From contig JAHFMV010000011.1 of the NCBI GenBank assembly GCA_023267655.1, positions 1 through 38,057 of the forward strand: 38,057 nucleotides of DNA, given 5' to 3'. This DNA comes from Candidatus Kaiserbacteria bacterium (GTDB taxonomy: Bacteria; Patescibacteriota; Minisyncoccia; Phycocordibacterales; UBA2100). Positions 7,266-19,613 of this stretch are shown here, in pieces. A program made the position numbers and the translations under genes. The notes under the pieces were generated by a model, which was given only the letters and a program-made list of their open reading frames with translations, had not been told where the DNA came from and did no database searches. Position 1 is the stretch's first letter. The number at the start of each line of letters is the position of its first letter.

Positions 7266-7297
7266 AACTGGCTCAAACGGCGCCATTTGAGCCAGTT
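7266..7297. repeat. DGR-flanking hairpin, left copy
   Basis: AACTGGCTCAAA-cggcgcca-TTTGAGCCAGTT: perfect 12-bp stem; 29/32 nt identical to 9852-9883 in direct orientation. Confidence 0.9.
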
Positions 7298-7414: not shown

Positions 7415-7975
7415 ATGAAGTATAACGATCTTACCCTCGGCCAGATCGAGGCGATCGTCAATAAGCTCGGCGGCATGGAAGGCGTTCAGTCTTTCTTGCG
7501 CGGCGAGAGGACGTTGCACGAGCAACACGCTACCAGCGGTTTGTTTCCGGTTTCGATCGATTATGGCCAGTCGCTCGCCGACATGATCAAGGCGGGCAAG
7601 TACGATTGGAAGAACGATGACATCACCGAGAAGCGATTTCCACTGAAGGGCGAAGGTGTCGTTGAGCGCACGCTCTCGCTTGTGCATTTTAATCGCATCA
7701 TCTCGAGCGATGATGCCATGCATGACATGATGAGCGAAAATCTGAAAGAACCTGCAACGATCGAGGATTTGCTCGCTTTCGGAGCAAAGTATCCCAAAGA
7801 ACAGCGGAAATATCCGATCATCGCACTCGGTTCTTCCGCGGGGGTGCACGGCCACCTCGACGTCCCGTCTCTCGGCGGGCTCGGTTCCAAGCGCGACCTC
7901 CGCCTGATCTGGTTTGACTACGAGTGGGCTGAGGACTGCCGTTTCCTCGCTCGCAACAAGGTCTCTGCAACTTAG
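7415..7975 (+). CDS. DGR target (variable) protein with a C-terminal C-type-lectin-like variable region
   Basis: MKYNDLTLGQIEAIVNKLGGMEGVQSFLRGE N-terminus, C-terminal VR with IWFDYEWAEDCRFLAR (C-lectin-like DGR target ending); VR lies at 7834-7954. Confidence 0.93.
   Translation: MKYNDLTLGQIEAIVNKLGGMEGVQSFLRGERTLHEQHATSGLFPVSIDYGQSLADMIKAGKYDWKNDDITEKRFPLKGEGVVERTLSLVHFNRIISSDDAMHDMMSENLKEPATIEDLLAFGAKYPKEQRKYPIIALGSSAGVHGHLDVPSLGGLGSKRDLRLIWFDYEWAEDCRFLARNKVSAT
7834..7954 (+). repeat. DGR variable repeat (VR)
   Basis: 121-bp gapless alignment to TR 8279-8399 with 18 mismatches, every one at a TR adenine. Confidence 0.97.
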
Positions 7976-8011
7976 TATTTGGGCTTTTGAACTTGGGCCT
8001 TAGGCACTTGG

Positions 8012-8039
8012 AACCTCGCGCTTCGAGAAGTGTGAGGTT
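8012..8039 (+). terminator. hairpin downstream of VR / target gene (terminator-like or DGR cruciform element)
   Basis: AACCTCGCGCTT-cgag-AAGTGTGAGGTT (12-bp stem with two G.U wobbles) followed by cTTTCTTTT. Confidence 0.6.
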
Positions 8040-8278
8040 CTTTCTTTTGGTACAATTGATCCGACAAATGAAAAATCTGCGGTTACGGCTTCAGGTAATT
8101 TGTCCGCAAACTTTGCGTGCCAGAGTCCGGACGGTCACGGCTTTCCGGAGTGTGCCGCACGGTGTGTCTCAAAAAAACAGAGACCGTTGGTATGAAGCCT
8201 TAGGGCATTCCAGATGCCGAATACGATACAGCCTTAAGAGTATTCGAGAGGTGGTGGTACGGAAGATGCTTCATACGA

Positions 8279-8399
8279 TTCCGCGAAGGTGCACGGCAAC
8301 CTCAACGTCCCGTATCTCAACAGGAACGGTTCCAAGCGCAACCTCAACCTGAACTGGTTTGACAACAAGTGGAATGAGGACTGCCGTTTCCTCGCTCGC
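8279..8399 (+). repeat. DGR template repeat (TR)
   Basis: Asn-codon (AAC) rich copy of VR: ...GGCAACCTCAACGTCCCGTATCTCAACAGGAACGGTTCCAAGCGCAACCTCAACCTGAACTGGTTTGACAACAAGTGGAAT...; 30 adenines, 18 substituted in VR, 0 of 91 non-A positions substituted. Confidence 0.97.
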
Positions 8400-8794
8400 T
8401 ACGCTCGCGATTTCCCGGTGCTTTCTTTTACGGAAAGTGCCGGGTTTTTCTGCAAAGTTTGTCGTCGCCATCCACCGAGCATTCGTCCCGCTTCCGCAAT
8501 CGGTTCGGAAATATGCGCATACTGTCCCGTACTTAAAGCCCGAGTCTCGGCACATAAGAGGAGGAGTAATTTCAAGAGATCGATACGCGCGACGCAGCGA
8601 TCGATGAATGCGAGTTTCTCCACTTCACGGCTGTAGCTTGCGAGGAAACAATATTCGATCGCATTGAGAAAGACTTCATCAATTTTTGAGCCGAGGGTGA
8701 AGCGACTTGCTTTTGGCATGAGAGGCATCAATGTTTGCCAGATACCGTATGCATCTTTAACTTTTAATACGACCGGCACGAGTTTCGTTTGCAA
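8399..8794 (-). CDS. DGR accessory variability determinant (Avd-like four-helix-bundle protein)
   Basis: VVLKVKDAYGIWQTLMPLMPKASRFTLGSKIDEVFLNAIEYCFLAS...LSTGQYAHISEPIAEAGRMLGGWRRQTLQ: bAvd / 23S rRNA IVP-like pattern (PK..RFTLG.KID ... GRMLGGW); TTG start. Confidence 0.88.
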   Translation of the reverse strand: MQTKLVPVVLKVKDAYGIWQTLMPLMPKASRFTLGSKIDEVFLNAIEYCFLASYSREVEKLAFIDRCVARIDLLKLLLLLCAETRALSTGQYAHISEPIAEAGRMLGGWRRQTLQKNPALSVKESTGKSRA

Positions 8795-8802
8795 AAATGT
8801 GC

Positions 8803-8813
8803 GGGGGGGGGGG
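8803..8813 (+). repeat. homopolymeric G11 tract between divergent avd and RT genes
   Basis: gcGGGGGGGGGGGcagg read directly. Confidence 0.9.
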
Positions 8814-8826
8814 CAGGATTCGAGGG

Positions 8827-9876
8827 ATGGGACGAATTCAACTCACTCATACCTACGAGGATATCATTTCCGTCGAAAACCTGCTCGAAGCATGGAAGGA
8901 ATTTGTCCGCGGGAAGCGAAAGAAGACAGACGTGCAGGAATTTCAGTACTCGCTGATGGACAACGTGCTTGCGCTGCATCAGGATTTGGCGGCGCGGCGA
9001 TATGTGCATGGCCCATATCACGCGTTCAACATTTCCGATCCCAAGCCGCGTAATATTCACAAGGCGATGGTGCGTGACCGGCTGCTGCATCACGCGATCT
9101 ATCGCAAGCTCTATCCGTTCTTCGACCGCACGTTTATTGCCGATTCGTATTCCTGCCGACGCGGGAAGGGGACGCACGCGGCGATGCATCGGTTCCGCAC
9201 TTTCGCCTCCAAAGTCTCACGCAACCACATGCGCACCTGTTGGGTTCTCAAATGCGATGTGCGAAAGTTCTTCGCTTCGATTGATCACGGAGTTCTTACG
9301 CGTATTCTCGAGAAATATATTCCTGATGAAAACATTCTCAAACTACTCTCGCACATCATCGGCAGCTTCGACTCAGCATATATCCCTCTATTCGCGGCCG
9401 CGCAAGAAGGGATATATACGCGGACAGGCTTGCCGCTCGGCAATCTCACCTCGCAACTGCTCGTAAATATTTACATGAATGAATTTGATCAGTATGTAAA
9501 GCATGTGCTGAAAGCGAACCATTACATCCGGTATGCGGACGATTTTGTGATTCTTTCGCATGATCGAGAATGGCTTGCAGGAATTCTACCGCACGTATAC
9601 GAATTCCTCTGCGCAAGGCTGAGCCTTGCGCTCCATCCCGACAAAGTCTCGATCCGAACCATCGCCTCCGGCATCGATTTCCTCGGCTGGATTCATTTTC
9701 CCGATCATCGCGTGCTGCGCACGGCGACGAAACGGCGGATGTTTGCGCGGCTACGTGAAGATGCGTTTGAGGAGCGTATCGCTTCATATCACGGGCTTTT
9801 ATCGCATGGAAATGCTAAAAAACTTACGGAAATGATCGTTGCTCTAAAACGAACTGGCTCAAACGGCGTAGTTTGA
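8827..9876 (+). CDS. DGR reverse transcriptase
   Basis: TCWVLKCDVRKFFASIDHGVL, GLPLGNLTSQLLVNIYMNEFDQYVKH (DGR-type motif 4 GNLTSQ), YIRYADDFVILS (YADD), LHPDKVSIRTIASGIDFLGWIHFPDHRVLR; likely start is ATG 8827 rather than 8797. Confidence 0.96.
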   Translation: MGRIQLTHTYEDIISVENLLEAWKEFVRGKRKKTDVQEFQYSLMDNVLALHQDLAARRYVHGPYHAFNISDPKPRNIHKAMVRDRLLHHAIYRKLYPFFDRTFIADSYSCRRGKGTHAAMHRFRTFASKVSRNHMRTCWVLKCDVRKFFASIDHGVLTRILEKYIPDENILKLLSHIIGSFDSAYIPLFAAAQEGIYTRTGLPLGNLTSQLLVNIYMNEFDQYVKHVLKANHYIRYADDFVILSHDREWLAGILPHVYEFLCARLSLALHPDKVSIRTIASGIDFLGWIHFPDHRVLRTATKRRMFARLREDAFEERIASYHGLLSHGNAKKLTEMIVALKRTGSNGVV

Positions 9877-9883
9877 GCCAGTT
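9852..9883. repeat. DGR-flanking hairpin, right copy
   Basis: AACTGGCTCAAAC-ggcgta-GTTTGAGCCAGTT: perfect 13-bp stem; overlaps the RT stop codon. Confidence 0.9.
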
Positions 9884-9914: not shown

Positions 9915-11063
9915 ATGGCGTTTTCGCTTTCAGGACTGGCACAAAAGCTGACCGGCGCATTGAGTAAAGGGGATAGCTCTGTCATCGGCATTGATATCGG
10001 CGCGTCATCGGCAAAAGTCGTGCAGCTGCGTTCTGCGCACGGTGCGGCCGTACTCGAAACCTATGGAGAAATCGCGCTGGGGCCGTACGGAAACGAGCCG
10101 ATCGGGAAAGCCGTGAAGCTCTCGCCGGAAAAAGCAGCAGAAGCGCTCTTGGATTTGATGCGCGAAGCAAACGTGACCGCAAAAACAGGCGGCATCTCGA
10201 TTCCATTTTCCTCGAGCCTCATCTCGATACTCGATCTTCCGAAAGTAGAACCGGAACAACTGAAGCGCATGATCCCAATTGAGGCACGCAAATACATCCC
10301 GATGCAGGTTTCCGAAGTCATGCTCGATTGGTACGTTATTCCGGAAGACGATACCGCCGGCGCCGCGTTCGATCGTATCGAAGCGAAATCGCCGATCCGT
10401 GCAAAAGGGCAGGAAGTTCTTCTCGTCGCAATTCACAACGACACGATTTCCTCGTACCAGACGATTGCCTCGAGCGCGGGGCTCTCGGTGAAATTTTATG
10501 AACTCGAAATTTTCGGCGCGATTCGCTCCTCGCTCGGGCACGGCGTCGCACCGGTACTTGTCATTGATCTGGGCGCCGCGACGACGAAAATGTACATTGT
10601 GGAGCGCGGCATTATCCGCACGACGCATCTGATCAACATCGGCGGGCAGCAAATGACCGAGCACTTGGGGCGCTCGCTCTCGTGGGATTTTGAAAAAGCA
10701 GAGCGCATCAAGCGTGAACGCGGCCTCGTCGAGAGCAATGCGTATTCGACCGATGAGAATGACCGCATCAAACAATCACTCCTATCCACACTCGAACGTA
10801 TTTTTAATGAGGCGGATCGGGTACTATTGAGCTACGGGAAGCGGTATAACAAAGACATATCGCATGTCGTCCTCTGCGGCGGCGGCGCATCGCTCCCCGG
10901 ATTGTCTGCGTTTGCAAATACTGCTCTGCACGCGCAACTCGAGATCGCAAATCCATTCAGCCGCACCGAAGCGCCCGCCTTTTTGGATACGGTGCTTCGT
11001 GACATTGGCCCCGGATTCGCCGTGAGCGTCGGAACCGCCTTGCGGGAGCTGCGCACCGGATAA
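9915..11063 (+). CDS. pilM: type IV pilus assembly protein PilM
   Basis: SVIGIDIGASSAKVVQLRS, IPFSSSLISILDLPKVEPEQLKRMIPIEARKYIPMQVSEVMLDWYVI, VIDLGAATTKMYIVERGIIRTTHLINIGGQQMTEHL. Confidence 0.93.
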   Translation: MAFSLSGLAQKLTGALSKGDSSVIGIDIGASSAKVVQLRSAHGAAVLETYGEIALGPYGNEPIGKAVKLSPEKAAEALLDLMREANVTAKTGGISIPFSSSLISILDLPKVEPEQLKRMIPIEARKYIPMQVSEVMLDWYVIPEDDTAGAAFDRIEAKSPIRAKGQEVLLVAIHNDTISSYQTIASSAGLSVKFYELEIFGAIRSSLGHGVAPVLVIDLGAATTKMYIVERGIIRTTHLINIGGQQMTEHLGRSLSWDFEKAERIKRERGLVESNAYSTDENDRIKQSLLSTLERIFNEADRVLLSYGKRYNKDISHVVLCGGGASLPGLSAFANTALHAQLEIANPFSRTEAPAFLDTVLRDIGPGFAVSVGTALRELRTG

Positions 11064-11087
11064 CACACCTCATCTTTTTTCTTTGCT

Positions 11088-11819
11088 ATGGAAACCGGCA
11101 TCAAATCATCATTCATCCCGCAATCACCGGTCGCTCCGATGCGTGCCGGTAGGACTCATTCGTCGCAAGGCGGTTTGAATTTCTTTGTCCTTGCCGCGCT
11201 CGTCATCTTCGTCGCCTCTGCCACGCTCGCGGTCGGTGTCTTTCTATATGCGCAATACCTCTCGACGAGTGCGAAAAGCAAACTCGGACAACTGGAACGT
11301 GCGAAGCAAGCATTCGAGCCGTCGCTCATCCAAGATCTGACGCGACTCGACGACCGTATGCGCGCCGCCGACGTAATCCTCGGCAAGCACGTGGCGCCGA
11401 CCGCGCTCTTTCATCTTTTGGAGCAGCTAACCTTGCAGACAGTGTCATTTTCGACGTTTGATTTTGCATCCGCCGACGATGGAACTCAATTGACCATGCA
11501 GGGTGTTGCACAGAGCGTGAACTCGATTGCTCTGCAGGCGGATCTCTTGAGCAAAAGCGGTGTTCTTTCGAATCCGATATTCTCCAACATCAACCGCCAA
11601 GTCGGGGGAGTGCGGTTTGATTTTTCTGCCGACGTGAACGACCAAGCGCTCCGCTATAGCGCGGTCGCGAATCCGCTCCAAGGCGGTGCGCAAACTGATA
11701 TGCCGGCACAACAACCAACATCGCCGTTTGGAACGCCAGGCACGACACAGATGCCGCCGGGAGGAGCGCCGCAGGCGCCGAAAAATATCCCAGCCACGGG
11801 ACCAAATCCGGCACAATAA
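11088..11819 (+). CDS. PilN-like type IV pilus assembly protein
   Basis: Single N-terminal TM segment plus PilN-like periplasmic region; position between pilM and a pilO-like gene. Confidence 0.7.
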   Translation: METGIKSSFIPQSPVAPMRAGRTHSSQGGLNFFVLAALVIFVASATLAVGVFLYAQYLSTSAKSKLGQLERAKQAFEPSLIQDLTRLDDRMRAADVILGKHVAPTALFHLLEQLTLQTVSFSTFDFASADDGTQLTMQGVAQSVNSIALQADLLSKSGVLSNPIFSNINRQVGGVRFDFSADVNDQALRYSAVANPLQGGAQTDMPAQQPTSPFGTPGTTQMPPGGAPQAPKNIPATGPNPAQ

Positions 11820-11820
11820 T

Positions 11821-12384
11821 ATGACACGAACCATCATTTCACTTATCTGCCTTTTCGGTGCCGGCGCGCTCTTTTTCTTCTACACAAAGCCCGCCTATGA
11901 CGGCACCCGCACGACACAAAACCAGATCGCGCAGTATGATTTGGCACTGAATAAAGCTGCCGAATTGCAGAAACTGAAACAATCGCTCCTCTCGCGCTAC
12001 AACGCATTCAATCCCGACGACATCGATCGGTTGCACAAGCTCTTGCCGGATCATGTCGACAACGTCCGCCTCGTTCTCGACCTTGATACGCTCGCATCCA
12101 AACACGGTCTCGCGCTCCAAAATGTCGTGATCGCATCGCCGAGCCAAGCGAAGACCACGGCCGCGCCGGCCGCTATCGGCCCGTCGCTCCAAAAGTACGA
12201 TTCTTTGACGCTGCGATTCGCGACGACCGGCACGTATTCACGATTCGTCGAATTTCTCTCCGAACTCGAACAAAGTTTGCGCATCGTCGATGTGACCGCG
12301 CTCCAGATCAACCTTGCCGATGGTGCGAGCCAAGACCCGAATTACCGCTTCGACATCACACTGCGTACCTATTGGCTCAAATAG
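11821..12384 (+). CDS. PilO-like type IV pilus assembly protein
   Basis: N-terminal TM, coiled coil, LLPDHVDNVRLVLDLDTLASKHGL ... FVEFLSELEQSLRIVDVTALQIN. Confidence 0.8.
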   Translation: MTRTIISLICLFGAGALFFFYTKPAYDGTRTTQNQIAQYDLALNKAAELQKLKQSLLSRYNAFNPDDIDRLHKLLPDHVDNVRLVLDLDTLASKHGLALQNVVIASPSQAKTTAAPAAIGPSLQKYDSLTLRFATTGTYSRFVEFLSELEQSLRIVDVTALQINLADGASQDPNYRFDITLRTYWLK

Positions 12385-12385
12385 T

Positions 12386-12733
12386 ATGATGAACCTTTTC
12401 AAAAATAAAATCGTTCTCTTGGTTCTTGCGGGAATTTTGCTTGCGGGCTTTATTTGGTACTCGTTCTTGCGTGACAAGGGGACGACGCTGCTTAAAACCG
12501 AAGACATCACGGCACCGACCGCGGTCGACAGCGACATTGTTTCTGTCCTCTTGCAGCTGCGCGCGGTGTCGCTCTCGGGCACGATTTTCACCGATCCGTC
12601 GTTTTTGACGCTGAAAGATTTTGGCAGCCAGATCATTCCCGAGCCGGTCGGAAGGGTGAATCCGTTTGCGCCGCTCTCCGGCATGAGTGCGACGACTACC
12701 GTAAATCAGCCGAAGAAGCCGGGAGGACGCTAG
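12386..12733 (+). CDS. PilP-like / small membrane-anchored pilus-operon protein
   Basis: N-terminal TM; short ORF after pilO; C-terminal GRVNPFAPL typical of this operon position. Confidence 0.55.
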   Translation: MMNLFKNKIVLLVLAGILLAGFIWYSFLRDKGTTLLKTEDITAPTAVDSDIVSVLLQLRAVSLSGTIFTDPSFLTLKDFGSQIIPEPVGRVNPFAPLSGMSATTTVNQPKKPGGR

Positions 12734-12737
12734 TATG

Positions 12738-12850
12738 CCCCGTTAGAGGCCGCGGTCGCGCGGGGTATACTTAAATGGTGATATGCATGTACGTTACAAA
12801 CTAAATAGGCAGCGCGGAAAAAAGACGACCGCGACCTGCCTCTAACGGGG
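12738..12850. repeat. long inverted repeat flanking the pilB upstream region
   Basis: CCCCGTTAGAGGC (12738-12750) and GCCTCTAACGGGG (12838-12850) are perfect complements; inner CGCGGTCG/CGACCGCG also complementary. Confidence 0.8.
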
Positions 12851-12851
12851 T

Positions 12852-14585
12852 ATGCCTCCTGTTACCTCGCGCCCGCAGACAGCAACTTTGACGGGCACCG
12901 CGTCTTCGACCGCTCCGATGCGGTCGCTCAAGGACGTCAAAATCCCGTACGAAGTTCTCAAGTTGATTCCGCAGGAAAGTGCGGAGCACTACATGCTCGC
13001 ACCGATTGGCGTCATCGATGGTGTCCTCGAAGTCGGGATGGTGGATCCGGATAGTATGGCGGCCGTCGATGCACTGAATTTTATCGCGCGCAAAAGCGGC
13101 GTCCCGTTCAAGATTTTCCAGATCACACAGGAAGATTTTGCCCGCGTCGAGCAAATGTACAAAGGCCTCGGCGGCGACGTCGATCAGGCGCTCACCGATT
13201 TGGCGAGTGAAAAAGCAGGGGAGAAAAAACAAAAAACCGATGACGATGATGGGATGGAATATCTCCTCGATCTCGGGACGATCGCGGAGAACCAAAAAGA
13301 CACCGGCGCGCTTCAAGAAGATGCGCCGGCAATTAAAATAGTTTCCACGATTTTGCGCTATGCGATCGACGGCAGGGCATCGGACATCCATGTCGAGCCG
13401 ACGCCGCAAGGCGTGCGTGTACGCTACCGTGTCGATGGCGATCTGCACACGAGCGTTGTCTTGCCGGCGAATACTCACCGCGCGATTGTCGCGCGCATCA
13501 AAGTGCTCTCATCAATCCGGCTCGACGAAAAGCGCCGTCCGCAAGACGGACGATTTTCTGCAAAATTCGATGAGCGCCAAATCGACTTCCGTGTGTCGAC
13601 GTTCCCATCGTACAGCGGCGAGAAGATCGTGATGCGTATCCTCGATCGTGAACAAGGATTTATTCCGGTCGACAAGATCGGGCTTTCCGAGCGCGACCTG
13701 GGCGTCGTGCACAGGGCTATCCAGGCACCCCACGGTCTCATTCTTATCTCGGGCCCGACCGGATCGGGTAAATCCACCACGCTCTATTCGATGCTCGCGG
13801 AATTGGATCGTGAACACAAAAATGTGCTCTCCTTGGAAGATCCGATCGAATACTACATCGATGGTGTCATTCAGTCGCAGGTGCGGCCGGAAATCGGCTA
13901 CACCTTTGCGACGGGACTGCGCACCACGCTGCGCCAGGACCCTGATATCATTATGGTCGGCGAGATTCGTGACGGGGAAACGGCGAAACTCGCCATACAA
14001 GCGGCGCTCACCGGCCACTTGGTGCTCTCGACCATTCACACCAATGACGCTGTTGGCGTCGTGCCGCGTCTCATTGATATGGGCGTCGAGCCGTATTTGA
14101 TTCCGCCGGTTCTCATCCTTTCGATGGCACAGCGCCTCGTGCGCACGCTCTGCCCAGGGACGGGAAAAGAATACGCACTTTCGCCGAGCGAAATAAAAAA
14201 CATCGAGAGCGAAATGGCATCGCTTCCCAAAGAGCACCATTTCAAGGTGGAGAAGAAAGCGTATGAGCCGGAACGCACACAAACCTGTCCGACGGGGCTG
14301 CGTGGCCGTATGGCAGTCTTTGAGACGATGGAGATGACGCAGGAGATCGAGCGCATCATCCTCACGTCGCCGATCGAATCGAAATTGCGCGATGCGGCAC
14401 GCAGGCAAGGTATGACGAACATGCGCGAAGACGCGATACGGAAAGCGTTTGCAAAACAGATTCCGTTTTCGGAAGTCAGTACGCTCTCATCGGTCTTGCT
14501 TGAAGACGAAACGGCGGCTCCTCCACCCGTTGCACCGAAAGAAGAGATCAAAGACGACGCGCCTGATGAAGCCACTACCACCTAA
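12852..14585 (+). CDS. pilB: type IV pilus assembly ATPase PilB (GspE family)
   Basis: GLILISGPTGSGKSTTLYSMLAELDREHKNVLSLEDPIEYYIDGVIQSQVRPEIGYTFATGLRTTLRQDPDIIMVGEIRDGETAKLAIQAALTGHLVLSTIHTNDA. Confidence 0.96.
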   Translation: MPPVTSRPQTATLTGTASSTAPMRSLKDVKIPYEVLKLIPQESAEHYMLAPIGVIDGVLEVGMVDPDSMAAVDALNFIARKSGVPFKIFQITQEDFARVEQMYKGLGGDVDQALTDLASEKAGEKKQKTDDDDGMEYLLDLGTIAENQKDTGALQEDAPAIKIVSTILRYAIDGRASDIHVEPTPQGVRVRYRVDGDLHTSVVLPANTHRAIVARIKVLSSIRLDEKRRPQDGRFSAKFDERQIDFRVSTFPSYSGEKIVMRILDREQGFIPVDKIGLSERDLGVVHRAIQAPHGLILISGPTGSGKSTTLYSMLAELDREHKNVLSLEDPIEYYIDGVIQSQVRPEIGYTFATGLRTTLRQDPDIIMVGEIRDGETAKLAIQAALTGHLVLSTIHTNDAVGVVPRLIDMGVEPYLIPPVLILSMAQRLVRTLCPGTGKEYALSPSEIKNIESEMASLPKEHHFKVEKKAYEPERTQTCPTGLRGRMAVFETMEMTQEIERIILTSPIESKLRDAARRQGMTNMREDAIRKAFAKQIPFSEVSTLSSVLLEDETAAPPPVAPKEEIKDDAPDEATTT

Positions 14586-14594
14586 TTTTTTCCT

Positions 14595-14981
14595 ATGACT
14601 GATACACCAAGTACCGTACTCCTTGTCGATGACGATAAATTCCTCCTCGACATGTATAGTCTCAAATTTTCGCAGGCGGGCTTTACCGTGCAGCCGTGCT
14701 TTTCGACACATGAAGCGATCGAGGCCTTGCGCGGCGGTCTTAAGCCGGCGGTGGTGCTCTTTGATGTGACCATGCCGGGCGAAGACGGCTTTTCGCTCTT
14801 ACAGACCATCAAAGATGAAAAGTTGGCTGCGGGCGCGCGCCTCATCGCGCTCACCAATCAAGGCAACGATGCCGACAAGAAACATGCGGAAGATTTGGGG
14901 GTTCATAAATACTGCATCAAGGCGAGCATGATTCCCTCGGAGGTTGTCAACATGGTGAAAGAGGAGATGAATAAAAAGTAA
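14595..14981 (+). CDS. response regulator receiver (CheY-like) protein
   Basis: TVLLVDDDKFLLDMYSLKFSQAGF...VVLFDVTMPGEDGFSLL...LIALTNQG...VHKYCIKA. Confidence 0.92.
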   Translation: MTDTPSTVLLVDDDKFLLDMYSLKFSQAGFTVQPCFSTHEAIEALRGGLKPAVVLFDVTMPGEDGFSLLQTIKDEKLAAGARLIALTNQGNDADKKHAEDLGVHKYCIKASMIPSEVVNMVKEEMNKK

Positions 14982-15083
14982 TTTTCAATTTACAATTCTC
15001 AATTTCCAATGAATTTTCAATGTACCAATGTGTGAAAATTAATGCATTGAATCATTGATCGAAAATTGCACAATTGATAATTA
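14982..15083. repeat. 7-bp-period inverted tandem repeat locus A
   Basis: TTTTCAA TTTACAA TTCTCAA TTTCCAA ... then ATTGAAT CATTGAT CGAAAATTG CACAATTGATAATT (imperfect reverse-complement arm). Confidence 0.75.
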
Positions 15084-15131
15084 TCCCGTGTCATCATCAT
15101 TGATTGTTCAAAAATACGTTACAATACCCTT

Positions 15132-16199
15132 ATGGTCATGGATTACGACTCACAACTAAAGAAGTACATTAATGTTTTGATACATGAAGGTGCGTCCGAC
15201 TTGCACCTCTCGACAGGGACGCACCCCACGATTCGCGTGGCCGGAGCTCTCACCGGCATGCTCAAGGAACCGGTTTTGACCAAAGACGACACGATGGGGT
15301 ATGTGAAAGCACTACTCACGCCGGAGCAGCTCGAGCGCTTCATAGCGACCTTTGAAATTGACTTTGCGTACGAGACGCCGGACGGCAATCGCTTCCGCGG
15401 CAATGCATTTTTCCAACGTGGTGCGGTCGGGATCGCGCTCCGATTCATCCCGAAACAAATCCGTACGATTGCGGAATTGAATTTGCCTGACATCCTCGAG
15501 ACCTTTGCGCGCAAATCGCAGGGATTCTTCCTCGTGGTTGGTCCGGTGGGGCAGGGCAAGACAACAACGCTCGCATCGCTCGTTGAGATGATCAACACCG
15601 AGCGCATGGAACACATCGTGACCATCGAAGATCCGATCGAATATATTTTTGAGCCGAAGCGCTCGCTTGTTGACCAGCGTGAAGTCCTGCTCGACACGAA
15701 AAATTTCGAAGCCGCGCTTATCAGTGCGTTCCGTCAGGACATCGACGTGCTTCTCATCGGCGAAATGCGCGGACCGGAGACGGTTTCGGCGGCGGTTACG
15801 GCCGCAGAAACGGGGCATCTCGTCTTTTCGACGCTTCATACCAATAATGCTGCGCAGACGATTGATCGTATTATCGATACGTTTCCGGCGAATCAGCAAG
15901 ATCAGATCCGCATCCAACTTGGCTCGTCGCTTGCGGGTATTTTCTCGCAGCGCCTCGTGCCGCGTATTTCCGGAGGGCTCGTTCCCGCGTACGAACTTCT
16001 CATCAACAACCGCGCGATCGCGAATTTAATCCGTGAGAAGCGCACGCACGAGATCAATACGGTCATCGAGACATCTTCCGGCGAAGGGATGATCGACATG
16101 AACCGTTCGCTCGCGGAATTGGTCGCGCGCGGTGAGATTACGGTGGAGAGCGCGTACCAATTTTCGCTGAACCCCAATGTGTTGCAAAAGTTGCTTTAG
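15132..16199 (+). CDS. pilT: type IV pilus twitching motility ATPase PilT
   Basis: GASDLHLSTGTHPTIRVAG, GPVGQGKTTTLASLVEMINTERMEHIVTIEDPIEYIFEPKRSLVDQREV, AFRQDIDVLLIGEMRGPETVSAAVTAAETGHLVFSTLHTNNA. Confidence 0.96.
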   Translation: MVMDYDSQLKKYINVLIHEGASDLHLSTGTHPTIRVAGALTGMLKEPVLTKDDTMGYVKALLTPEQLERFIATFEIDFAYETPDGNRFRGNAFFQRGAVGIALRFIPKQIRTIAELNLPDILETFARKSQGFFLVVGPVGQGKTTTLASLVEMINTERMEHIVTIEDPIEYIFEPKRSLVDQREVLLDTKNFEAALISAFRQDIDVLLIGEMRGPETVSAAVTAAETGHLVFSTLHTNNAAQTIDRIIDTFPANQQDQIRIQLGSSLAGIFSQRLVPRISGGLVPAYELLINNRAIANLIREKRTHEINTVIETSSGEGMIDMNRSLAELVARGEITVESAYQFSLNPNVLQKLL

Positions 16200-16239
16200 T
16201 CTTTATGTATCGTTTGTCTTTTATGAGATCGAATAGCAG

Positions 16240-16317
16240 CAGCGTCGAGCGTCGAGCGTCGAGCTTAGAGAAAATCGCTTCTCGCGTAATGTCGCAGCTC
16301 GCAGCTCGCAGCTCGAA
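16240..16317. repeat. 7-bp-period inverted tandem repeat locus B
   Basis: (AGCGTCG)x3 AGCTTAG ... (CGCAGCT)x3 CG, ending next to the pilC ATG. Confidence 0.85.
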
Positions 16318-16320
16318 CCT

Positions 16321-17535
16321 ATGAGCCTCTTCACGTACACCGCGCTTGATGAACAGGGGGCGCAGCGGCAGGGAACTATCGATGCCGTGAATGTTGACGT
16401 CGCGATTTCAGCCTTACAGCGACGCGGTCTCATCATATCTTCGATCGATTCGGCGGAAGCAAAGCCAAAGTGGTCGCTGCAGACATCGATCCCGATTTTC
16501 AGCGGCATCAAGGGGTCCGATATCGTCATGCTCTCGCGGCAGATGACGACGCTCTTCGAGAGTCAGGTTTCGGCGCTTCGCGCGTTCCAGTTGCTCGCCG
16601 CAGAAGCGCGTACGCCGCGGCTTGCCGACGTCCTCTCATCAATTGCAACTGATATACAAAGCGGCAGCCAGATCTCAAGCGCGCTTTCCAAGCATCCTGA
16701 CGTGTTCTCCGCGTTTTACGTCAACATGGTTCGCGCCGGCGAAGAAGCGGGTAAATTGGACGAAACGTTTTCATTCCTCGCGGATTATCTCGATCGTAAC
16801 TACGAGATCACGTCGAAGGCGAAAAATGCGCTCATTTACCCGGCATTTATCGTCGGCACGTTCTTTGTCGTCATCATCCTCATGATGACACTCGTCATTC
16901 CGCGCCTCGCGGTCATGCTCACCGAGACCAACCAACCGATCCCGATATATACGCGTATCGTCATCGGCATGAGTACGATTTTTGCCGATTACGCACTCTT
17001 GTGGATTGCATTCCTCGTCATCGCCGGCGTCTTTCTCTTCCGCTTCATCCGCACCAAAGCGGGAGCCGTCATGTTTTCGAAGGCGCGCCTGCAGGTTCCT
17101 ATTATCGGTGGCATTTACAAGAAATTGTATCTCTCACGTGTCGCGGACAACCTCTCGACAATGCTCAAGTCAGGTATTCAGATGCTGCGTGGACTCGAAG
17201 TTACCGGCTCCGTCGTCGAGGATCCGACGTACGAGCGTGTCCTCACGGAAGCAGCCACCGATGTGAAAGGGGGATTGCCTGTATCTGAAGCATTCCGCAA
17301 ACACCCTGAAATTCCCGGGATCGTGGTTGCCATGATCAGGATCGGCGAAGAAACCGGCAACATGGGGACGATTCTGGATTCAATCGCGAAATTCTATCGC
17401 CGCGAGGTGAATAACGCGGTCGACACGCTCGTTTCTCTGATTGAGCCGTTCATGATCGTCTCACTCGCCGTGTGTGTCGCGGTGCTTCTCGCATCAGTTC
17501 TCGTGCCAATTTATAACATCGCCGCAAGCATCTAG
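16321..17535 (+). CDS. pilC: type IV pilus inner-membrane platform protein PilC (GspF family)
   Basis: FTYTALDEQGAQRQGTIDA, MLSRQMTTLFESQVSALRAFQLLA, MVRAGEEAGKLDETFSFLADYLDRNYEI, MIRIGEETGNMGTILDSIAKFYRREVNNAV. Confidence 0.95.
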   Translation: MSLFTYTALDEQGAQRQGTIDAVNVDVAISALQRRGLIISSIDSAEAKPKWSLQTSIPIFSGIKGSDIVMLSRQMTTLFESQVSALRAFQLLAAEARTPRLADVLSSIATDIQSGSQISSALSKHPDVFSAFYVNMVRAGEEAGKLDETFSFLADYLDRNYEITSKAKNALIYPAFIVGTFFVVIILMMTLVIPRLAVMLTETNQPIPIYTRIVIGMSTIFADYALLWIAFLVIAGVFLFRFIRTKAGAVMFSKARLQVPIIGGIYKKLYLSRVADNLSTMLKSGIQMLRGLEVTGSVVEDPTYERVLTEAATDVKGGLPVSEAFRKHPEIPGIVVAMIRIGEETGNMGTILDSIAKFYRREVNNAVDTLVSLIEPFMIVSLAVCVAVLLASVLVPIYNIAASI

Positions 17536-17536
17536 G

Positions 17537-17632
17537 TAGCCACTAGTCATTAGCGACTAGCCACTAGGGCATGCGGAATGCAAAATGCATTTGAATTTTT
17601 CTTAATGGCTACGTACTAGTGGCTAGTGGCTG
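17537..17632. repeat. 7-bp-period inverted tandem repeat locus C
   Basis: TAGCCAC TAGTCAT TAGCGAC TAGCCAC TAGGG ... GGCTACG TACTAGT GGCTAGT GGCTGA. Confidence 0.88.
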
Positions 17633-17741
17633 ATTTTGTTATCCCCACCCCCTTCCCACAAACAGGGGAAGCCATCGTATGATTGTCTTCATTGGAGGCT
17701 CGCACTAATCGGCCTTACTTTTAATAATTTACTATAGATGT

Positions 17742-18188
17742 ATGTTAAAAAAATCACGCGGTTTCACTCTCATTGAATTGTTGGTGGTGATCGCCATTAT
17801 CGGTATCCTCTCATCGGTTGTGCTCGCCTCGCTTAACGGTGCGCGCAAGAAAGGTCGCGACGCTCGTCGTATCTCTGACCTTAAGCAGATCCAGCTCGCG
17901 CTCGAAATGTACTACGACGCAAACGGGAGCGAATATCCTGATGCAACCTCGTCACTCGCACCGACATACATCTCGGTGTTGCCGGCTGATCCGCAGACTG
18001 CAGCCGCATATTCCTACGACAACCTCACGAGTGCCGCCGCTGCCTGTGTCGTCGCATCCGGTGTCTGTTCAAACTACGTACTCGGCGCAACACTCGAAGA
18101 TAGCAATAACGCCGCTCTCAACCAAGATATCGATGGCACGGTGGGTTCGGTCACATGCACCGATCCGACCTTCTGTGTCCAGCCGTAA
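17742..18188 (+). CDS. type IV pilin (GspG-like major pilin candidate)
   Basis: RGFTLIELLVVIAIIGILSSVVLASLNGARKKGRDARRISDLKQIQLALEMYYDANG. Confidence 0.93.
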   Translation: MLKKSRGFTLIELLVVIAIIGILSSVVLASLNGARKKGRDARRISDLKQIQLALEMYYDANGSEYPDATSSLAPTYISVLPADPQTAAAYSYDNLTSAAAACVVASGVCSNYVLGATLEDSNNAALNQDIDGTVGSVTCTDPTFCVQP

Positions 18189-18225
18189 TTTATTAGCAAT
18201 TATTATTTAGCCTAATTACGCATAT

Positions 18226-18690
18226 ATGAATCGACTTAATCGCGGCTTCACCCTGATTGAATTGTTGGTGGTGATTGCCATCATCGGAATCCTCGCATCC
18301 GTCGTCCTCGCGTCGCTCAACAGCGCACGCGTCAAAGGTCGCGACGCCCGACGCATCTCGGATGTGAAGCAAATCCAGCTCGCACTCGAGTTGTACTACG
18401 ACAAAAATCAGACCTATCCGACAGCGGCACAGGCCATGAGCACCTCGACATCAGTCTTGGTAACGAACGGATTTATCTCGTCACTCCCGGTTGATCCGTC
18501 GACGCAAGGATTGTATTCGTATGCTGCATTGCAGTCTGACGGTGTGACCGCATGTACGACGACTCCATGCCCAAGTTATGTTGTCGGGGCGACCATCGAA
18601 GGCGGCGCATCAGCAACTCCGGCTGACGTCGACACCAATCCTATCGGCGGCCTCGATTGTTCGGATCCGGTGTTCTGCAAGACACCCTAG
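18226..18690 (+). CDS. type IV pilin (GspG-like, paralog of preceding)
   Basis: RGFTLIELLVVIAIIGILASVVLASLNSARVKGRDARRISDVKQIQLALELYYDKN. Confidence 0.93.
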   Translation: MNRLNRGFTLIELLVVIAIIGILASVVLASLNSARVKGRDARRISDVKQIQLALELYYDKNQTYPTAAQAMSTSTSVLVTNGFISSLPVDPSTQGLYSYAALQSDGVTACTTTPCPSYVVGATIEGGASATPADVDTNPIGGLDCSDPVFCKTP

Positions 18691-18722
18691 TCCAAAATTC
18701 GTTGAAGGATTTTGGACGGGCG

Positions 18723-18751
18723 ACCCCGCTCAGACTACGTCTGAGCGGGGT
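18723..18751 (+). terminator. rho-independent-like terminator after pilin genes
   Basis: ACCCCGCTCAGA-ctacg-TCTGAGCGGGGT, 12-bp stem; a second hairpin TCCAAAAT/ATTTTGGA precedes it. Confidence 0.75.
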
Positions 18752-18773
18752 TTAGCCGTGGTAAACTCACCGC

Positions 18774-19613
18774 ATGTTTTTTCTCGAGGTTGTTTTTTGG
18801 GCGACACTCGGCCTCATTCTCGGCAGTTTTGCAAATGTCCTTATCTTGCGATACGGCATGCAAACGCTCGGCGGGCGCAGCGCATGTCCCGCATGCACGC
18901 GGCAGCTGCGCTGGTTTGAACTAATTCCCGTGATCTCGTACCTCGCACTGCGCGGGAAGTGTATGACATGCCACGTACGCATCTCGCTGCAATATCCGCT
19001 CGTTGAACTTTTGATGGCACTCTTTACCCTCGCGATCGGACTTTCACCCGCGCCTCTTGCCGTGAAAGGAATCGGCGTACTGATCGCGCTTCTCCTCATC
19101 GCAATTGCGGTATACGACCTGTATACGACGTACATGCCTGACGCGTGGGTGCTCGGCTTTATCGGTGCTGCAATTATCACGAGCATCTTCACGCTCGGAT
19201 GGGGCGTGTTCAGCGTGTGGTTTATTCTCGCCGGACCCCTTGTTGCGCTTCCCTTGTATGCGCTGTGGTTTTTTTCCGATGGACGTTGGATGGGATTTGG
19301 CGACGTGAAATTTGCGCTCGGCATTGGATGGCTGCTGGGGATTCCGCTTGGCTACGTCGCACTCTGCTTTGCATTTGTGATCGGTGCCATCGTCGGCGTG
19401 TGTATCCTACTACCGCTCCAGCGCCTCAAAGCCCTGTTCTCGAGTGGGATAACTCGCTATGCGGCGGTCGGCGAAGGATTTACAATGAAGAGCGAAGTGC
19501 CGTTTGGGCCATTTCTCATCATTGGCGTATGCATATGTTGGATCAGTCTCTTATATTCGATACCGCTCATCGCGATTCTCGCGGATTTTCTCTCATTGAA
19601 CTTCTCGTCGTGA
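18774..19613 (+). CDS. pilD: prepilin peptidase PilD (A24 family)
   Basis: LGLILGSFANVLILR, CPACTRQLRWFELIPVISYLALRGKCMTCHVRISLQYPLVELL, VYDLYTTYMPD, WMGFGDVKFALGIGWLLG. Confidence 0.94.
   Translation: MFFLEVVFWATLGLILGSFANVLILRYGMQTLGGRSACPACTRQLRWFELIPVISYLALRGKCMTCHVRISLQYPLVELLMALFTLAIGLSPAPLAVKGIGVLIALLLIAIAVYDLYTTYMPDAWVLGFIGAAIITSIFTLGWGVFSVWFILAGPLVALPLYALWFFSDGRWMGFGDVKFALGIGWLLGIPLGYVALCFAFVIGAIVGVCILLPLQRLKALFSSGITRYAAVGEGFTMKSEVPFGPFLIIGVCICWISLLYSIPLIAILADFLSLNFSS

Follow-up and report, generated by a model that had tools for sequence, protein, structure and literature searches.

The 38,057-nucleotide stretch of a Candidatus Kaiserbacteria genome analysed here (the window) carries a genuine DGR, consisting of Avd, RT, one target gene, and a TR/VR pair that differs only at adenines. 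The best explanation of the locus as a whole, to which we assign a probability of about 0.72 from sequence comparisons, is that of a patescibacterial DGR in which the template RNA would be a gene of its own with a 5′ scaffold, Avd is encoded antisense to it, and a simple repeat at the avd/RT junction would serve as a frameshift switch. One more DGR in Patescibacteria is by itself ordinary for the phylum; Patescibacteria are among the most DGR-rich bacterial groups. The order in the window is target gene with VR, structured RNA, TR, avd (minus strand), and RT, with the following features.

7415..7975, plus strand: target gene, an ORF of 186 aa with the VR as its C-terminal part
7834..7954, plus strand: variable repeat (VR), with 18 A-only differences from the TR
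8010..8041, plus strand: stem-loop 3′ of the target gene (14 bp, 4-nt loop, T-rich tail)
8047..8056, plus strand: extended -10 promoter-like motif TTGGTACAAT, directly before the template RNA
8057..8280, plus strand: template RNA, structured 5′ domain of 223 nt (covariance model R1, 167.7 bits)
8279..8399, plus strand: template repeat (TR), with A-only differences, starting 2 nt past the closing helix
8399..8794, minus strand: avd (accessory variability determinant), on the strand opposite to the template RNA, its stop codon abutting the TR
8414..8449, plus strand: intrinsic terminator-like hairpin with T5, 15 nt past the TR
8803..8813, plus strand: G11 tract, a candidate phase-variation repeat, where the 5′ ends of avd and RT overlap
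8827..9876, plus strand: DGR reverse transcriptase (RT), with ATG 8827 lying 13 nt past G11 and an alternative in-frame ATG 8797 before the tract

The TR/VR pair, the genes, and their surroundings

The window was compared with about 110 related loci in total. The RT was found in 53 of 147 related genomes, and 80 named loci were taken, all or nearly all of them from Patescibacteria. A-only TR/VR pairs were present in 85 of the 110 loci, with a usable TR in 83. A second set, found via the RNA alone, comprised, after removal of duplicates, 16 loci that carry both avd and RT.

Pairwise realignment of TR (8279–8399) and VR (7834–7954) gave 121 columns with no gap and 18 mismatches (10 A>G, 5 A>C, and 3 A>T). 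All 18 fell on the 30 adenines of the TR and none on its 91 non-A sites (p = 6.8e-14 for random placement), bearing out the exclusive adenine mutagenesis with 18 substitutions that an earlier note had read from the sequence. Translation in the target frame reproduced each of the 13 residue changes proposed there (TR, SAKVHGNLNVPYLNRNGSKRNLNLNWFDNKWNEDCRFLAR; VR, SAGVHGHLDVPSLGGLGSKRDLRLIWFDYEWAEDCRFLAR), and the assignment as a TR/VR pair agrees with the DGR-type RT, the Avd, and the VR-bearing target gene that surround it. The base just past the 3′ end is a non-A difference (T at 8400, A at 7955), and therefore the true repeat end is 8399/7954. Among the 83 related loci, 1389 of 2552 TR adenines (54%) differ from the VR, compared with 30 of 7197 other sites (0.4%); these pairs were chosen for A bias, and the figures are thus a description and not a test. 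A search of the whole 1.09-Mb, 98.9% complete genome found no further TR or VR copies, and the DGR is single copy in this genome.

The earlier note had also concluded that the system was recently active. Past activity and a scarcity of non-A mutations since the last homing are upheld by the alignment, while the timing and present activity are not. Homing copies the TR over the VR, thereby resetting non-A differences. Because of this resetting, 0 of 91 non-A differences implies only that few mutations have occurred since the last homing event (95% upper limit of about 3% non-A divergence), and that event is thereby placed on the mutation clock but not in absolute time. The assembled Avd frame looks switched off at G11, and the DGR of this locus may or may not be active at present.

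The VR spans residues 141–180 of the 186-aa target protein, and relatives of the target family adjoin the same RNA, TR, avd, and RT in many loci. An AlphaFold model of the target has a pLDDT of 87.9; its top PDB matches are mostly C-type lectin domains, all of them weak (E of at least 0.23). Runs of N lie in or near the target-gene VR in several assemblies (L080:3086–3095, L095:3140–3151, L109:1970–2002, and L115:3054–3126), as expected if the VR is perhaps too variable for assembly.

The RT scored 90.8 bits against RVT_1, its translation contains the LGNLTSQ and YADD motifs, and its relatives carry TR/VR pairs. Avd scored 46.0 bits against Pfam PF22296 (bAvd; cut-off, 40) and 62 bits against NCBIfam NF033474, below the cut-off of 80; it is a divergent Avd. 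In 103 of the 104 loci of the clade, avd lies on the strand opposite to TR and RT. The exception is L118, where the RT is the inverted gene and avd still opposes the TR. The antisense arrangement recurs in all 16 loci of the second set, whereas avd shares the strand of TR and RT in 65 of 65 BPP-1-type loci.

A perfect palindrome with 12-bp arms, AACTGGCTCAAA-N8-TTTGAGCCAGTT, occurs at 7266–7297 and at 9852–9883, flanking the entire DGR, and the latter copy includes the RT stop codon. Elsewhere in the genome there is one more copy with one mismatch (G000:C26:11178–11209), and the reversed control gave none. The palindromes may act as terminators or may be what a mobile cassette left behind. Type IV pilus genes (9915–19613) follow directly past the RT; PilM (9915) was assigned by Pfam, and the ORFs after it look like PilN/O, PilB, PilT, PilC, prepilins, and a prepilin peptidase.

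The structured RNA and the boundaries of the putative template-RNA gene

The TR begins about 300 nt past the stop codon of the target gene, and the ~220 nt before it are conserved in all of these loci. In the RNA fold, a UUACGG-type loop recurs in two hairpins; an A-rich linker and a junction complete the structure, and a 12-bp helix, in which 8190–8201 pairs with 8265–8276, closes the junction. Compensatory changes were seen in 47 of 53 pairs among 30 sequences. With 95 distinct sequences, in an alignment fitted to the model, 94.3% of the cells were paired (65.1% when shuffled), the covariation score was 0.744 (0.235 when shuffled, and at most 0.155 for slid versions), and two-sided changes were present in nine of nine helices.

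Model R1 gives roughly one match in each of about 95 loci, on the same strand as the TR. Across the 147 genomes, RNA and RT were both present in 47, RT only in 6, RNA only in 7, and neither in 87 (p = 4e-24); the seven RNA-only genomes are at least in part explained by contig ends or divergent relatives. The R1 RNA was found in 57 of 294 genomes across the phylum, and no Rfam 15 family reached its gathering score for the RNA in the window and 20 relatives. Among BPP-1-type and other viral loci, R1 matched only the two with antisense avd, the IMG/VR contigs L124 and L125 (158 and 23 bits, respectively; L125 also carries a LOOT RNA), and phages of Patescibacteria may therefore carry such a DGR type. 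Two further loci, L234 and L237 (G333:C22 and G221:C4), have the R1 RNA with neither avd nor RT within 2 kb downstream, and these RNAs may be independent template RNAs that act in trans, or they may be relics.

The RNA is bounded on both sides by elements resembling transcription signals. A TA[TC]ANT motif occurs within 24 nt upstream of the RNA in 61 of 95 loci, compared with 0 of 93 at a control position; a sigma-70 scan of the window did not detect the box at 8047..8056. The stem-loop at 8010..8041 would be a terminator and possibly also a homing hairpin. The TR starts 0–2 nt past the closing helix in 48 of 82 loci (median, 2), and a hairpin followed by a T-run lies 3′ of the TR, within tens of nucleotides, in 74 of 83 loci. 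Taken together, the -10-like box, the RNA, the TR, and the terminator-like hairpin read as a putative free-standing template-RNA gene at about 8062–8449.

Complementarity between the RNA linker and the TR 3′ flank was more frequent within loci than across loci (z = 7.7); five other regions used as controls gave z values from -0.7 to 1.7, and the reversed flank gave 3.6. Many different compensated versions of this pairing exist among the loci. Such a helix could serve initiation by placing the TR 3′ end beside the 5′ domain. We do not claim the long-range helix for the window, where just an 8-nt match with one mismatch was found (8180–8187 and 8407–8414). The linker segment that pairs with the TR 3′ flank in many loci can alternatively form a local hairpin (CUUC..GAAG, for example in L029), and the window linker can form a local hairpin of its own (GUCUC..GAGAC, about 8165–8184). 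The two mutually exclusive pairings of the linker are possibly a switch.

We propose that the template RNA would be transcribed from its own small gene with promoter, folded 5′ domain, TR, and terminator (about 8062–8449). The RT, together with Avd expressed from the opposite strand, would bind the folded 5′ domain and copy the TR, making errors opposite adenines; cDNA synthesis would probably halt at the closing helix that marks the TR 5′ end, and the cDNA would then replace the VR within the target gene. With the scaffold on the 5′ side, cDNA priming would have to differ from the priming by the 3′ spacer of BPP-1.

The locus might instead be a DGR of the ordinary type. The upstream RNA would then be a regulator in its own right, controlling for example the expression of target or template, and the part bound by the RT would lie 3′ of the TR, reached by read-through of the terminator into the avd antisense region. 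The RNA core does lie 3′ of the TR in BPP-1 and other phage DGRs, both in the loci compared here and in PMC12875486. We nevertheless consider this unlikely, given the position of the terminator tens of nucleotides past the TR, a 5′ domain that ends exactly at the TR, and a linker that covaries with the TR 3′ flank; moreover, Rfam identified no DGR RNA 3′ of the TR in the window. It is barely conceivable that some other A-directed process, such as editing, alkylation, or recombination, made the A-only pattern: a DGR RT, Avd, and a structured template RNA adjoin the pair, the same pattern recurs in 83 loci, and nothing was found in favour of such a process. A 5′-scaffolded template RNA stays our preferred reading of this part of the locus.

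The simple repeat at the avd/RT junction

The G11 tract is the only homopolymer of such length in the window. A run of 7–14 G occurs at the avd/RT junction in 90 of 110 loci, lengths that metagenome assemblies can miscount. Junctions totalling 43 kb hold 86 runs of at least eight G, compared with a single G-or-C run in the 558 kb that these loci comprise outside them. The loci with no G tract mostly have (GA)9–18, (GT)11, (CTGA)8, or (TGGC)6 at the same site. The second set replicates this in 14 of 16 loci (13 with G8–11 and one with (ATTG)7), the other two having no repeat. The exchange of G for GA, GT, CTGA, TGGC, or ATTG at one site indicates that repetitiveness is conserved and not G itself, and the repeat units of 1, 2, or 4 nt, never 3, suit the need of a frameshift switch.

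The Avd frame is open through the tract in 89 of 89 loci. As assembled, 22 of the 89 loci have a candidate Avd start ATG in frame past the tract and 67 do not; one added nucleotide would bring such an ATG into frame in 37 loci and one removed in 43, categories that overlap. A TTG or GTG (ATG in three loci) near the conserved Avd start is a possible start after the tract in 60 of 89 loci, and in the other 29 none of these three codons follows the tract. In the window, the Avd ATG across the repeat is not in frame at the assembled length of 11 and would be at 12 or 9. Avd would therefore be switched off here, and a tract of 12 or 9 would switch it on, unless translation starts at TTG 8794. The antisense Avd ATGs overlie conserved RT codons and may be by-products. 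A start codon for the RT lies after the tract in 56 of 84 loci, raising the possibility that the RT is not switched.

The junction thus has a non-triplet simple repeat near a coding 5′ end, conserved in place and variable in length, and the reading frame through it differs between relatives. The simplest reading of the repeat would be a phase-variable Avd, and consequently phase-variable mutagenesis. Slippage in the repeat at the overlapping 5′ ends would toggle Avd, and perhaps the RT in some loci, with the result that only part of the population would mutate at one time. Among the results listed by a literature search, none described a DGR switched by a simple repeat, which is not proof of absence.

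Two other accounts of the junction were weighed against a frameshift switch. The repeat could be an element of transcriptional slippage, ribosome binding, or promoter spacing at the divergent junction, as might be suggested by the RT ATG that often lies 13 nt past the G tract, by the frequency of RT start codons after the tract, and by the possible TTG or GTG starts of Avd. The substitution of G by five other repeats, none with a triplet unit, and the invariably open avd frame argue against this account, which we regard as rather improbable, though it deserves to be taken seriously. The other account is that the element is decaying, with a frameshifted Avd and a VR that is a relic of past activity; the only ATG within reach in the window indeed needs 12 or 9 nt, not 11. 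However, the RT is intact, the RNA retains a score of 167.7 bits, and TR and VR show no non-A change. Out-of-frame states are also common among the loci while Avd coding is kept. Decay is accordingly very unlikely in our judgement, and a phase-variable Avd is retained as the favoured interpretation of the repeat.

Relation to known systems and implications

The BPP-1 DGR (AY029185: mtd, avd = bbp7, TR, and brt) has in common with the window the A-only TR/VR differences, Avd, a DGR RT, and a VR in the C-terminal part of the target. In BPP-1, a single strand carries mtd, avd, TR, and brt. There avd is 5′ of the TR, and the interval from the TR to brt, on the 3′ side of the TR, is a spacer RNA of 144 nt, which recruits bRT-Avd and primes cDNA (PMC12875486). 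In contrast, the window has an RNA domain 5′ of the TR, a terminator-like hairpin past the TR, an antisense avd, and a simple repeat at the avd/RT junction; neither a same-strand avd nor a structured spacer RNA 3′ of the TR was found there. The Rfam families Phage_DGR, RT-17, and RT-18 are structured DGR RNAs, as is the window RNA, but lie 3′ of the TR and directly before the RT in nine of nine loci with a placed TR. The Patescibacteria DGRs of "DGR clade 2" (Roux et al. 2021) resemble that of the window in being cell-encoded and having targets with no recognised domains, according to PMC8144416, whose main text contains no mention of avd, the avd strand, a 5′ RNA, or a repeat. The clade-wide architecture differs from that of the studied phage DGRs, and earlier descriptions of the antisense avd or the RNA may exist.

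The Rfam family RT-7 (RF03028) shares a hairpin module and the overall layout with the window RNA. The window RNA scored 25.3 bits against RT-7, below the gathering score of 116.8, and L215 scored 60.6 bits; no RT-7 RNA reached the gathering score in the 294 genomes of the phylum. In the patescibacterial locus L215 (3749–3410, minus strand), an RT-7 RNA is followed immediately by a TR-like sequence, which encodes GNRNNSSGSLNNVGSNGYYWSSV..., and a DGR RT is also present, so that RT-7 may likewise be a 5′ template-RNA domain. The avd of L215 is co-directional, unlike the antisense avd of the window. A direct search found no TR/VR pair for L215, the target being off the contig or absent, and no relatives of the RT-7-bearing RT were found in viral contigs. 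The L215 arrangement suggests a role for the orphan family RT-7 as a template-RNA domain of DGRs.

Phase-variable contingency loci with simple repeats are described in Neisseria, Campylobacter, and Helicobacter (PMC5084427, PMC8224891, and PMC2715451). Like these, the clade of the window has a non-triplet repeat at a coding 5′ end whose frame differs between relatives. Unlike them, the window repeat would control a mutator, with one repeat serving two divergent overlapping genes. Whether the lineage as a whole has a distinct kind of DGR, in which a free-standing 5′-scaffolded template RNA is combined with a mutator that is itself a contingency locus, with Avd (and RT in some loci) switched by frameshift, is in our estimation an even chance.

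The trigger of DGR mutagenesis is, to our knowledge, largely unexplained, and most work on the template RNA concerns a single phage element. A 5′-scaffolded, self-terminating template RNA of less than 400 nt would offer a new way to approach cDNA priming in vitro and to build compact tools for targeted diversification, and the orphan RNA RT-7 would gain a testable function. The conserved repeat switch, if real, would give a simple, testable answer to how mutagenesis turns on: a stochastic on/off switch for targeted hypermutation, making hypermutation a bet-hedging state.
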